A stretch of DNA of 64,000 nucleotides, taken from contig CASICJ010000004.1 in the NCBI GenBank assembly GCA_949373085.1, forward strand, positions 62,001 to 126,000, in the 5' to 3' direction. The translations under genes and the position numbers were made by a program. Under the pieces are notes generated by a model. That model did not search any database, was not told where the DNA came from, and saw only the letters and a program-made list of their open reading frames with translations. Below are positions 54,436 to 59,540 of the stretch, piece by piece; the stretch's first letter is position 1, and each line of letters starts with the position of its first letter. Origin of the DNA: an uncultured Verrucomicrobiales bacterium. Lineage in GTDB: Bacteria; Verrucomicrobiota; Verrucomicrobiia; Verrucomicrobiales; Akkermansiaceae.

Positions 54436-54555
54436 TCATCTCATTACGTCGAAAAGCGAGAGGTCGTTTCAATCGTTAAAAAATCAATATCATGAAAGCA
54501 AGATCGGAGGTTGGACAACCGTAATCCTATTGTAAGGTTCGCAAGACAATTTCTG

Positions 54556-57546
54556 ATGCTCATTCGTTTTATTTTTGCTCACATTCTCGGTTTTTCTGTT
54601 CTTAGTGCGAAAGTCAGTTTTAACGACGAAATTCGCCCTCTGCTCTCCAATAGTTGTTACCGCTGTCACGGTCCGGATGAAGAGGATCGTAAGGCTAAGC
54701 TTCGACTTGATACTCGTGAGGGGGCCATAAGGGATCACAAGGGTTTCACCGCCATTTTGCCGGGGAAAATCGAGGACAGTGAGTTGATCTATCGTATTGT
54801 TACGGATGATGAAGATGAAATGATGCCGCCACCGGGAAAGGGGAAGCGCTTTACGAAGGAACAAATTGAACTTTTTAAGCGGTGGATCGAAGAAGGAGCG
54901 GAATACGAGGTCCACTGGTCATACGCAAAGCCCGTTCGAGCTGAAGTTCCTCGGGTTGATGAGACCATGATGAAGGTTTGCAATCCGATAGATGCCTTCA
55001 TTCTCAGCCGACTTAATAAAGAAGATCTTACGCCTAGCAAGGAAGCTGATGCTCAGACCTTAATTCGGCGTGTTGCTCTCGATCTTACCGGACTTCCGCC
55101 TACCAAGGCGGAGGTCGACGCATTCCTTGCCGATGAGGGTGCCAAGGCATACGAAAATTTGGTCAACCGCCTTCTTGCCAAGCCTGCTTTCGGCGAGCAC
55201 TGGGCTCGTATGTGGCTGGATCTTGCTCGTTATGCGGACTCAGCTGGTTATGCGGATGACCCTGGCCGTACGATTTGGGCCTATCGAGACTGGGTTATCC
55301 GTGCCCTCAATGAGAATATGCCTTTTGATCAATTTACAATTGACCAAATTGCGGGCGACCTAGTTCCCAACCCCACTGAAGATCAACTCATTGCTACCGC
55401 TTTCCACCGCAACACTAAGACAAATAACGAAGGCGGAACGAGTGATGAAGAATTCCGCAACGCAGCGGTCGTTGATCGTGTCAATACGACCATGGCGACT
55501 TGGATGGGAACCACCGCAGCTTGTGCTCAATGTCATACCCACAAATATGATCCAATCAGTCATGCTGAGTATTTTCAGATGTTCGCCATTTTTAATCAAT
55601 CGGAAGACGCCGATCGACGGAATGAAGCTCCAATCATCCAGGTGATGGGGGATCGAAATAAGAAACAAGCCGCTCATTTTTCCGCCGAGATCGCAAAGCT
55701 GAAAAAGGAAATGGAACCTGCCAAAAAGCTGGGTCTTAAGGCCTTTGCGGAATGGGAAGCTAATTCCAAGGCTAAGGTAGCTCGTTGGAAGGTCCTCACG
55801 CCAGGAAAGATGACTGCGGCTTCTGGTGCGAAATTCAAGGCAGGTTCTGACGGATCTATCCTCGTAAGTGGAAAAACTGCCGGGATTGATGATTATACAA
55901 TTGCCGCTACGAGTAAGCTGAAAAAAATCACCGCAATCAAAATCGAGGCTCTTGCTTATGATAAGCTGGGTAGCGGTGGTCCAGGTCGGAATGGCAACTT
56001 TGTCCTTAGCGAAATCGAACTCAGTGGCGGTAAGACCAAAGCTTCTTTTTCGAATGCCTCTTCCACTTATTCTCAGAATAAGTTCGGGGCGGCCTCTGCG
56101 ATCGATGGCAACGCTGGCAGTGATTCCGGATGGGCTGTTGGCGGATCACTGGGTAAGGATCATTACATCGTGATCGAGTTAGACAATCCTCTCGATGGGC
56201 GGGATCTCGAACTTAAACTTTTGCAACGTTATTCAAACCATGCTCTTGGCCGTTTCCGGATTTTGGTAACTGATTCTGCAGGTCCTTCTATTGCGCTTTC
56301 CTCTGAGATAATAGCGATCCTTGAAAAGTCTCCTGCCAAACGTAGCGCTGCTGAGAAGGCTCAATTAGTTGCTGCTTATCGTAAGACCAATCCCAGCGTT
56401 CTTGCTGACACTAAGAAGCTCGCGGATCTCGAAAAGCAACTGGCTTCCGTCAAGCCTCTCACCTCGGTTCCCATTATGCGTGACCTGCCTAAGGATAAGC
56501 ATCGTAAGACCCATATTCAACTTCGTGGGAGCTATTTGAGTCTTGGGGAAGAAGTCGGGCCGGGGGTGCCCCAAGTTTTTGGGTCGCTTCCTAAGGGCTC
56601 GAATCCCGATCGACTCGCGATAGCGAAATGGTTGGTGGACCGAGAGAATCCTCTGACTGCTCGCGTGGTCGCCAATCGGTTTTGGGAGAATCTCTTCGGC
56701 GTCGGAATCGTCCTTACAAGCGAGGAATTTGGATCTCAGGGCGAACGGCCTTCTCATCCCGAACTCCTTGATTGGCTTGCGGTCGAATTCATGGATGGGG
56801 GATGGGATGTTAAGAATTTTCTTCGCCTTCTCGTGACTTCATCGGCCTATCGCCAGAATTCTCATGTCAGCGATGAGATGGCTGCTCTGGATCCCGACAA
56901 TCGTCTTGTTGCCCGTGGCCCTCGGGTTCGGCTTTCCGCAGAAATGATCCGCGACCAGGCTCTTGCGATCTCGGGCTTGTTGAGTTCGAAAATGTATGGT
57001 GTTCCGGTTCGTCCGCCCCAGCCAAATCTTGGTCTCAAGGCTGCCTTCGGAGGCGGGACCGATTGGAGCACGAGCTCGGGCGAGGATAAGTTCCGTCGCG
57101 GCCTTTACACTAGCTGGCGTCGTTCGAGTCCGTATCCTTCCATGGCGACCTTCGGAGCTCCCAATCGCGAGGTTTGCACTGTGCGCCGTGGCAATACCAA
57201 CACACCGTTGCAAGCCCTTGTGACCTTAAACGACCCTGTTTATATTGAAGCTGCTCAGGCTCTCTCACGACGAATGGCGGCGTGCAAAGGGACGGTCGCT
57301 GACATGATCAGACATGGCTTCCAACTCTGCCTTTCTCGCTATCCCAATAAGGTCGAAACTTCCCGCTTGATCGCTTTGTATGATTCTACACGCAACAAGT
57401 ATGCAGCCGACCTAAAGCTCGCGCAGGAAATGGCCACCAATCCTATCGGTCCAGTTCCTAAAGACATCGATGTCGTAGAGCTCGCCACTCTCACAGTTGT
57501 CGCAAATATCCTTCTCAATCTCGATGAGACCTTGATGAAGCGATAA
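54556..57546 (+). CDS. PSD1 / DUF1549-DUF1553 cytochrome c-domain protein (copy 2)
   Basis: 996 residues from ATG 54556 (MLIRFIFAHILGFSVLSAKV, signal peptide). Same architecture as the protein at 45129: PSCyt1 with heme motif CYRCH, MPPPGKGKRF, DUF1549 (TLIRRVALDLTGLPPTKAEV, WARMWLDLARYADSAGYADD, ACAQCHTHKYDPI), a central discoidin-like beta domain (KKITAIKIEALAYDKLGSGG ... NGNFVLSEIEL) and DUF1553 (NPLTARVVANRFWENLFGVG, YPSMATFGAPNREVCTVRRG). The shared insert domain shows that the two copies are true paralogues. It precedes its own DUF1501 partner by 23 bases. Confidence 0.95.
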   Translation: MLIRFIFAHILGFSVLSAKVSFNDEIRPLLSNSCYRCHGPDEEDRKAKLRLDTREGAIRDHKGFTAILPGKIEDSELIYRIVTDDEDEMMPPPGKGKRFTKEQIELFKRWIEEGAEYEVHWSYAKPVRAEVPRVDETMMKVCNPIDAFILSRLNKEDLTPSKEADAQTLIRRVALDLTGLPPTKAEVDAFLADEGAKAYENLVNRLLAKPAFGEHWARMWLDLARYADSAGYADDPGRTIWAYRDWVIRALNENMPFDQFTIDQIAGDLVPNPTEDQLIATAFHRNTKTNNEGGTSDEEFRNAAVVDRVNTTMATWMGTTAACAQCHTHKYDPISHAEYFQMFAIFNQSEDADRRNEAPIIQVMGDRNKKQAAHFSAEIAKLKKEMEPAKKLGLKAFAEWEANSKAKVARWKVLTPGKMTAASGAKFKAGSDGSILVSGKTAGIDDYTIAATSKLKKITAIKIEALAYDKLGSGGPGRNGNFVLSEIELSGGKTKASFSNASSTYSQNKFGAASAIDGNAGSDSGWAVGGSLGKDHYIVIELDNPLDGRDLELKLLQRYSNHALGRFRILVTDSAGPSIALSSEIIAILEKSPAKRSAAEKAQLVAAYRKTNPSVLADTKKLADLEKQLASVKPLTSVPIMRDLPKDKHRKTHIQLRGSYLSLGEEVGPGVPQVFGSLPKGSNPDRLAIAKWLVDRENPLTARVVANRFWENLFGVGIVLTSEEFGSQGERPSHPELLDWLAVEFMDGGWDVKNFLRLLVTSSAYRQNSHVSDEMAALDPDNRLVARGPRVRLSAEMIRDQALAISGLLSSKMYGVPVRPPQPNLGLKAAFGGGTDWSTSSGEDKFRRGLYTSWRRSSPYPSMATFGAPNREVCTVRRGNTNTPLQALVTLNDPVYIEAAQALSRRMAACKGTVADMIRHGFQLCLSRYPNKVETSRLIALYDSTRNKYAADLKLAQEMATNPIGPVPKDIDVVELATLTVVANILLNLDETLMKR

Positions 57547-57569
57547 AATCACCAATCAATTTTCATCGT

Positions 57570-59018
57570 ATGAATCCACAGTTAGAAAGCCTACAATACA
57601 AAACGAGGCGGCACTTTTTCAAACAATGCTCCATGGGGCTCGGCGGGGTTGCACTTAGTGAGATGCTTGCGACTGATTCTATGGGCTTAGAAGCTCCGGC
57701 CAATCCGCTTCTGCCTAAGCTTCCGCACTTCGCGTCCAAGGCGAAGCGCGTAATCTACCTCCACCTCACCGGATCGCCGCCCCATCTCGACATGTGGGAC
57801 CATAAGCCCGAGCTCGTGAAGCGCGACGGTCAAGAATGCCCGGACGAATACATCAAGGGTAAGAAGTTCGCCTTCACCTCAGGTAAGCCCAAGCTGATGG
57901 GGAGCCCACGCACTTTTAAACAGTACGGCAAAAATGGTCTTTGGATGTCCGATGCGATTCCGCACTTGCATGGCGTGGCTGACGATCTCTGCATCATCAA
58001 CTCGATGACTACTGATCATTTCAATCATGCTCCCGCTGAGCTTTTCGTACACACTGGTTTCCAGCAGCCGGGCCGTCCTTCCTTCGGGGCTTGGACCACC
58101 TATGGTCTGGGATCGGAAAACCAAAACCTGCCTGGATACGTGGTTCTTATCTCTAGTGGAGTGCAGCCGAATGGCGGAAAGAGTTCTTTCGATTCGGGGT
58201 TTATTCCGTCTGTCCATCAAGGCGTGCAGTGTCGTTCAAAAGGGGATCCTGTTCTTTATGTTACTGACCCTCCGGGCATAGATCGTAGCTTGCGTCGCTC
58301 CAGCCTCGACGCACTCCGGGATCTCAATGAGGCCGCCTCCAAAGACTTTGCCCATCCTGAAACCCTGACTCGCATGGCGCAATATGAGCTTGCGTTCCGT
58401 ATGCAAATGTCAGTCCCCGAGGTTATGGATATCTCGAAGGAATCGAAGAAGACTCTCGACTCCTACGGTGCTCAACTCGGTGCCTCGAGCTTCGCTAACA
58501 ACTGCCTTCTCGCGCGGCGTCTCGCCGAAGACGGAGTTCGTTTTGTTCAGCTCTTTGACTGGGGCTGGGATTTCCACGGGACAAATCCCAAGGAGGACAT
58601 CCGGGACGGACTCACCAACAAATGCGCCACAATGGACAAACCCATTGCGGCCTTGATCAATGACCTCAAGGAGCGTGGACTCTTTGAAGACACCCTTATT
58701 ATTCTCGGCGGAGAATTTGGGCGGACTCCATTCCGTGAAGGCCGGACGGCCAAGGGAAAGGTCCTTGGTCGCGATCACTTTCCTGATTGTTACACCATGG
58801 TCATGGCTGGTGGGGGAGTGAAAGGGGGATACACCCACGGTGCGTCCGATGATCTTGGTTTTTCGGTCGCTCGTGACAAGGTCCATGTTCACGATTTACA
58901 GGCAACTTGGATGCATCTTCTTGGGTTTGATCACGAGAAACTCACCTACCGCTTTCAGGGTCGTGATTACCGGCTCACTGATGTCCATGGCAAGGTCGTG
59001 AAAGATCTCTTGGCCTAG
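57570..59018 (+). CDS. DUF1501 family Tat-exported protein (copy 2)
   Basis: 482 residues; Tat-type N-terminus (KTRRHFFKQCSMGLGGVALS). Same signatures as copy 1: KRVIYLHLTGSPPHLDMWDH, FVQLFDWGWDFHGTNPKEDI, IILGGEFGRTPFREG and GRDHFPDCYTMVMAGGGVKG. Longer by about 17 residues in the N-terminal part. Partner of the PSD1 gene upstream. The selenoprotein gene begins 71 bases after its stop with no terminator evident between, so it may be on the same transcript. Confidence 0.95.
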   Translation: MNPQLESLQYKTRRHFFKQCSMGLGGVALSEMLATDSMGLEAPANPLLPKLPHFASKAKRVIYLHLTGSPPHLDMWDHKPELVKRDGQECPDEYIKGKKFAFTSGKPKLMGSPRTFKQYGKNGLWMSDAIPHLHGVADDLCIINSMTTDHFNHAPAELFVHTGFQQPGRPSFGAWTTYGLGSENQNLPGYVVLISSGVQPNGGKSSFDSGFIPSVHQGVQCRSKGDPVLYVTDPPGIDRSLRRSSLDALRDLNEAASKDFAHPETLTRMAQYELAFRMQMSVPEVMDISKESKKTLDSYGAQLGASSFANNCLLARRLAEDGVRFVQLFDWGWDFHGTNPKEDIRDGLTNKCATMDKPIAALINDLKERGLFEDTLIILGGEFGRTPFREGRTAKGKVLGRDHFPDCYTMVMAGGGVKGGYTHGASDDLGFSVARDKVHVHDLQATWMHLLGFDHEKLTYRFQGRDYRLTDVHGKVVKDLLA

Positions 59019-59089: not shown

Positions 59090-59485
59090 ATGAAAAAACC
59101 AATCGTTTGGATGGTCGCAGCTGTGGCGCCCATTCTCTTAATCACTACTGCTTCCGCAGACGTGTCCAAGGCTCCTGTGGTGAAGGCCGCTGCTGAGGCT
59201 AAGATCCCCACGCTTACCTATTATTATTTCGACGGATGACCGCTTTGTGCAAAAATTTCGGTCATCGTGAATGATCTCAAAAAGACAAAGGGAAAAGAAA
59301 TAACCTTCAAGAATGTCCTCGTCGGAACCGGCAAGAGCAAAGAAGAAATCAAAAAGGCTAAGCTGAAGGGGCATGGTATTATCGCCAAGGACAAGAGCGG
59401 TAAGCTCGTCGATACGATCGAAGGCCACACATATGGCAAAAAAGAAGTCGATGCCGTTGTGGCCAAGCTTCTCGCCAAAAAGTAA
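59090..59485 (+). CDS. Secreted thioredoxin-like selenoprotein (in-frame TGA as selenocysteine)
   Basis: ATG 59090 (an in-frame ATG at 59060 is possible) opens a signal peptide MKKPIVWMVAAVAPILLITT-ASA, cut after Ala23. The mature part reaches TYYYFDG, then TGA at 59237-59239 (codon 50), then PLCAKISVIVNDLKKTKGKE and stays open in the same frame to TAA 59483-59485, 131 residues in all. Reading TGA as Sec gives FDG-U-P-L-C, a UxxC redox motif at the end of the first beta strand of a thioredoxin fold; the rest (ITFKNVLVGTG, HGIIAKDKSGKLVDTIEGHT, YGKKEVDAVVAKLL) fits that fold. Hairpins overlap and follow the TGA, and mnmH in this window shows selenium use. The alternative, a stop codon followed by a dead 82-codon tail, is less likely given the motif fit. 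Confidence 0.8.
59234..59276 (+). promoter_or_regulatory. Candidate bacterial SECIS element
   Basis: Two mutually exclusive hairpins. (1) Perfect 8-bp stem gatgaccg (59235-59242) with cggtcatc (59259-59266), enclosing the TGA. (2) ggtcat (59260-59265) with atgatc (59271-59276), one G-U pair, whose 5-base loop cgtga holds a GU and begins 27 bases past the last base of the TGA, within the distance usual for bacterial SECIS loops. Either could recruit SelB; structure is inferred only. Confidence 0.55.
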
Positions 59486-59512
59486 GCAGATTTGATTATT
59501 TTATAACTCAAG

Positions 59513-59540
59513 AAACCGGAGGAATTCTTCCGGTTTTTTT
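59513..59540 (+). terminator. Rho-independent terminator after the selenoprotein gene
   Basis: Stem aaaccggag (59513-59521) with ttccggttt (59528-59536), one G-U pair, loop gaattc, followed by a T run to 59540. It lies 27 bases after the TAA, supporting the view that the transcript, and hence the gene, runs past the TGA. Confidence 0.9.

Follow-up and report, generated by a model that had tools for sequence, protein, structure and literature searches.

A predicted exported selenoprotein family with a UxxC motif in Verrucomicrobia

Relation to described selenoprotein families

Selenoproteins that use a UxxC motif for thiol-disulfide chemistry are well established among the thioredoxins and glutaredoxins. 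The gene analyzed here encodes a protein with such a motif and lies in a 64,000-nucleotide stretch of DNA (the window) from an uncultured Verrucomicrobiales bacterium. A 2026 inventory recognizes 119 prokaryotic selenoprotein families, several of which are thioredoxin-like with UxxC (PMC13188914). The window family was matched to none of these 119, and the thioredoxin-like UxxC families of the inventory that have NCBIfam models give no match to it above cut-off. The window protein itself scores below the cut-off of every Pfam and NCBIfam model, the NCBI selenoprotein models included. The family is also absent from the results of a literature search on selenoproteins of Verrucomicrobia, which found almost no literature.

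Several described groups come close. Sec-thioredoxins (PF00085) and the GOS groups Trx-like 1-3, to the extent that the 2008 account characterizes them (PMC2398784), share with the window family a thioredoxin fold and a UxxC motif that begins with Sec. The window family differs from them in lacking both WCGPC and the cis-proline, in carrying an invariant His-Gly, in its predicted export, in having almost no Cys relatives and in falling below the Pfam cut-off (12.9 bits for PF00085, where the curated score is 23.5). GOS_C (NF045500), from marine metagenomes, is presented in the same account as another group with a thioredoxin-like fold and UxxC (PMC2398784); at E 0.1 its model picks up none of 18 window family members. 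SaoT (NF040730), likewise thioredoxin-like with UxxC, is matched by three of the 18 members (best E 0.034), and the DF family selenoprotein model (NF049942) by four (best E 0.016). The window protein matches neither, in the case of SaoT at E 0.1. DsbA/DsbG-like UxxC selenoproteins have in common with the family Sec in UxxC and periplasmic thiol-disulfide chemistry, which is predicted here, and the motif region weakly resembles DsbA (E 0.02-0.05). In contrast to them, the window family lacks the helical insert and the cis-proline and gives no family match.

Trx-like 3 deserves separate mention. It is a loosely defined metagenomic group that is compared with the window family here by its table description alone (PMC2398784). 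Single metagenome reads of the family might have been filed under this name in 2008, in which case the genome context alone would be new. According to that description Trx-like 3 is marine, thioredoxin-like, bears UxxC and is defined solely by a weak match to cd02950 (PMC2398784), and 17 of the 18 window family members weakly match the thylakoid thioredoxin-like model NF038096 (best E 0.001). However, the table counts 183 Cys homologues beside 212 selenoproteins (PMC2398784), whereas no close Cys homologues exist here, and we consider such an earlier count unlikely. The preliminary description of this locus had guessed that the protein was undescribed. That guess holds for the curated models and the literature covered here, and Trx-like 3, compared by description, remains a candidate for an earlier record. 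The window protein probably represents a family not described before within a known class, marked by loss of the cis-proline and near absence of Cys relatives. It adds a well-supported selenoprotein family to a phylum for which almost no selenoprotein literature was found.

Gene structure and reading frame

The predicted selenoprotein gene occupies positions 59090..59485 of the + strand, the TAA being counted in these coordinates, and specifies 131 residues. This assignment draws on the reading frame, on homologues and on dN/dS. From an ATG at 59090 the frame passes through TGA at 59237-59239 (codon 50) and continues for 81 sense codons to a TAA at 59483-59485, as had been read before. The product is MKKPIVWMVAAVAPILLITTASADVSKAPVVKAAAEAKIPTLTYYYFDG-U-PLCAKISVIVNDLKKTKGKEITFKNVLVGTGKSKEEIKKAKLKGHGIIAKDKSGKLVDTIEGHTYGKKEVDAVVAKLLAKK, with U encoded by the TGA at 59237. 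This Sec codon (U50, 59237..59239, + strand) opens a U-P-L-C motif (59237-59248), and its column is conserved in homologues.

A signal peptide is probable at residues 1-23 (59090..59158, + strand). Its end, MKKPIVWMVAAVAPILLITTASA followed by D, was assigned by eye, and the relatives likewise start with a hydrophobic stretch that ends in a similar way, in agreement with the earlier proposal of an export signal. The terminator claimed to follow the TAA corresponds to a hairpin at 59510..59539 (+ strand) that overlaps a T run and is very stable on folding (-16.9 kcal/mol, z -4.7). A scan for simple terminator patterns did not report this hairpin, though folding shows it. A promoter scan gave no signal above chance.

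Gene finders of the standard type would truncate or miss this gene in each genome that carries it. The machine-made list of open reading frames contains a sole frame over the gene, 72 residues long and starting from a GTG at 59267. Such a list is what favors reading the TGA as a real stop, which would leave a 49-residue peptide followed by either a decaying pseudogene or a separate small gene with a later start. A later start would, however, cut the predicted fold after its active site. The comparative evidence below also bears on this explanation.

Conservation of the TGA and selection

Homologues with exactly one in-frame TGA occur in 21 of 58 related genomes, and the TGA always falls in the U50 column. 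One further genome (G050) carries a distant form without the stop. Across 84,980 species genomes, a single scan returned 42 loci. Of these, 41 belong to the family, and each of the 41 has TGA as its U50 codon. Their hosts are Akkermansiaceae, Rubritalea, Roseibacillus and other Verrucomicrobiales, mostly marine Verrucomicrobia, together with one bin labelled Lentisphaerales. At the order level, a profile search returned 43 sequences carrying one TGA and four carrying Cys, plus a fragment that lies outside the active site and a single ordinary thioredoxin. The three sets overlap, so these counts are not additive. In the alignment, the U50 and C53 columns of U-P-L-C are both invariant. The TGA was correctly placed on the first position of a CxxC-type site, and the column is kept in all Sec members, well beyond what chance would give.

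Downstream of the TGA, with the window gene as reference, dS climbs to saturation while dN/dS stays at 0-0.17 wherever dS is measurable. Purifying selection is strong on both sides of the TGA, and the part after it is the better conserved half of the protein. These values exclude a true stop with a degenerating remainder behind it. A real stop is further opposed by the alignment of UPLC across the TGA, by the identical TGA in all Sec members and by Cys at the same column in relatives that have no stop. Taken as a whole, the real-stop explanation is extremely improbable. A base error is excluded too, since dozens of genomes that were assembled separately share the TGA.

The codon preceding the Sec TGA (window 59234-59236) is GGA in 37 of the 40 members that have Gly there, and it is far less varied than other Gly codons of the family. 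This bias is possibly a context effect on UGA reading.

A probable SECIS hairpin

A probable bacterial SECIS hairpin, GGUCAU-CGUGA-AUGAUC, lies at 59260..59276 on the + strand and is supported by frozen codons, covariation, folding and likeness to selD. Its loop (59266-59270) starts 26 nt past the UGA. Across the family it takes the form GGUCAU-CGUGA-AUGAYC, with a stem of 6 bp and a 5-nt N-G-U-N-N loop, and G-U occupies loop positions 2-3 in every sequence (CGUGA, AGUUA, AGUUG). Synonymous variation at codons +8 to +11 (GTC ATC GTG AAT) is 0-0.09 of that expected from the family's own codon usage. The remaining columns average about 0.9 of expectation. The wobble positions of the hairpin are frozen across genera.

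Pairing is maintained in 96.6% of cells among 34 distinct sequences, against 14-47% for slid versions of the hairpin. Compensatory double changes replace U-A by C-G in three cells and G-C by A-U in one, a number that none of 500 shuffles reached. Over 30 sequences the covariation count was at first weak, the stem being nearly constant; it became clear when more divergent members were added. In seven family-bearing genomes, the selD genes carry a hairpin with an N-G-U-N-N loop about 33 nt past their own UGA. Like loops after the selD and the selenoprotein UGA would follow if a single SelB recognizes the two. The hairpin sequence is missing from the Cys homologues.

Published bSECIS rules call for a stem of 4-16 bp and a loop of 3-9 nt with G at position 1 or 2, at a distance of 16-37 nt from the UGA (PMC13188914). 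The window hairpin agrees with them in stem (6 bp), loop (5-nt NGUNN) and distance (26 nt). One predictor also requires a minimum free energy no higher than -7.5 kcal/mol, a model into which some known elements reportedly do not fit (PMC13188914); the window hairpin alone, at -4.4 kcal/mol, does not reach this limit.

A weak point of the assignment is that in the closest relatives the UGA can itself pair into a competing hairpin, UGACCG with CGGUCA. The competitor (window 59237-59264) and the SECIS hairpin are mutually exclusive, and the competitor, which may be chance or a switch, is missing in distant members. When the region after the UGA is folded singly, z is near zero and the competing hairpin wins. 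A ribosome positioned at the UGA would presumably cover its 5' arm.

Selenocysteine machinery and genetic code

The window's own genome (G000) encodes selA (G000:C41, 483 bits) and selB (G000:C28, 318 bits), both over their curated cut-offs. At G000:C27, two programs identify a tRNA-Sec whose anticodon is UCA. The selD of this genome (G000:C8) has its own in-frame TGA and is split by a frame break in the assembly. This break lies about 80 codons into the gene (L146, G000:C8:1300-2800). It is probably an assembly error, and the selD genes of relatives are whole.

Among the related genomes, selA accompanies the TGA gene in 20 of 21. The one lacking selA, G022, is 72% complete; its selB and tRNA-Sec both score over cut-off. 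No genome without any sign of Sec machinery carries the TGA gene. The association with selA is significant when kinship is ignored (Fisher p 1.4e-4). Another genome, G036, has a whole selD without an in-frame TGA (L054, G036:C75) and no selA match; its SelD may serve another selenium use.

That a TGA is translated would also be seen if the genetic code had changed or if the stop were simply read through. The code is unchanged, since TGA terminates 11 of the 29 long frames of the window. The sole tRNA examined with anticodon UCA is tRNA-Sec. The TGA also sits at the position of a catalytic Cys, and selA and selB co-occur with the gene. A frozen hairpin, moreover, stands at SECIS distance. Reassignment or readthrough is therefore hardly credible as an explanation.

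Absence of the selenocysteine genes, lack of Cys-containing homologues aligning across the TGA or a different base on resequencing had been named beforehand as grounds for abandoning the selenoprotein interpretation. Instead, selA, selB, selD and tRNA-Sec(UCA) are all in the genome, four distant relatives with Cys align across the TGA, and the same TGA stands in dozens of separate assemblies. The sequence evidence shows that the TGA is translated, in a genome where the selenocysteine machinery is complete, and by computation the family is a genuine selenoprotein family. With high confidence, its UGA would be read by SelB and Sec-tRNA(UCA), guided by the hairpin 26 nt downstream.

Predicted fold and redox site

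AlphaFold2, run on the family alignment, predicts a single domain of about 95 residues with pLDDT near or above 90 over approximately residues 41-129. The order of elements in this model is strand-helix-strand-helix-strand-strand-helix. Fold searches with the model lead to thioredoxins (Foldseek E 2.6e-5; VIA-align Z 13.8, rmsd 1.6 over 87 residues), which bears out the original view of the protein as thioredoxin-like. Gly96 aligns onto the cis-proline of the thioredoxin PDB chains 8xyw and 1thx and is preceded by the invariant His95. The codons of this invariant His95-Gly96 pair, which occupies the cis-proline place of thioredoxins, are at 59372..59377 on the + strand.

Other profile matches were set aside. 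Two at the phylum level (G419, G121) and one at the order level (G494) are ordinary thioredoxins with proline at the usual place, and L098 is a glutaredoxin-like chance match.

Proposed function

We estimate a probability of roughly 0.7 that the protein is an exported thioredoxin-fold oxidoreductase with selenocysteine as the attacking residue. Most likely it would be a periplasmic selenol-based thiol-disulfide reductase, because it combines a predicted thioredoxin fold, UxxC and an export signal and because its own genome encodes a DsbD_TM protein. With moderate confidence, the U50 selenol of the exported protein would attack a periplasmic disulfide or other oxidised group. C53 would then resolve the intermediate. 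A membrane donor, for instance the DsbD-type protein of the genome, would re-reduce U50/C53; we hold these steps with equally moderate confidence. His95-Gly96, in place of the cis-proline loop, may shape substrate choice or tune the selenol. The missing cis-proline, which is expected in a reductase of the thioredoxin kind, counts against this reading.

With the usual loop replaced by an invariant His, a different role is conceivable. Sco-type copper chaperones carry a Cys pair and a His on a thioredoxin fold. By analogy, U50, C53 and His95 might form a metal site, for example for copper, rather than the center of a reductase. The invariant His95-Gly96 where cis-proline is expected fits this arrangement, as do a very weak match of the family profile to Sco1 over the His-Gly loop (E 0.66) and the failure to find a Sco protein in the window's own genome, which is 81% complete. 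However, the spacing is UxxC and not the CxxxC of Sco (PF02630), to which there is no significant sequence match; His95 is invariant, but the CxxxC that accompanies His in the Sco copper site is not present. The fold search puts thioredoxins first, and the Sco1 match is not significant. A Sco-type site is decidedly unlikely. A broader version, in which an obligate-Sec family uses selenol, Cys and invariant His for non-thioredoxin chemistry such as a metal site or periplasmic handling of peroxide or selenium, is improbable as well, if slightly less so.

For the reductase reading, no conserved neighbor hints at a donor or substrate, and distant members sit elsewhere. Inferring function from neighboring genes was discarded, as a PSCyt1/PSD1 gene, a DUF1501 gene and a transglycosylase gene are common to the nearest relatives only. 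In the window, genes for a PSCyt1/PSCyt2/PSD1 protein and a DUF1501 protein lie upstream at 54511-59018. Genes of the PSCyt1/PSD1 and DUF1501 types are also found near two distant members (L081, L086), where they are perhaps merely common genes.

Cys relatives and evolution

The four Cys relatives (L129-L132, from G507, G488, G524 and G050) come from one genus only and are lipoprotein-like, with a lipobox-like end in place of the signal-peptide end of the window protein. A tree of 50 sequences groups the Sec members together (support 93/88) and places the four Cys members in a neighboring group (85/61); it is built on few columns, and the Cys branches are long. Thioredoxins fall outside the Sec and Cys groups, and a single label change is enough for each group. 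No reversion to Cys is seen within the Sec clade of this tree, so Sec seems hard to replace. That recommends the family for studying what makes selenium necessary in an exported redox protein.

The deep-Sep authors state as a limit that predictors ask for Cys homologues (PMC12013277). Families with almost none tend to be dropped by current predictors. One member (L093) is from the bin labelled Lentisphaerales and reflects either a transfer that crossed phyla or a wrong bin. In G507, a Sec copy and a Cys copy are present together.
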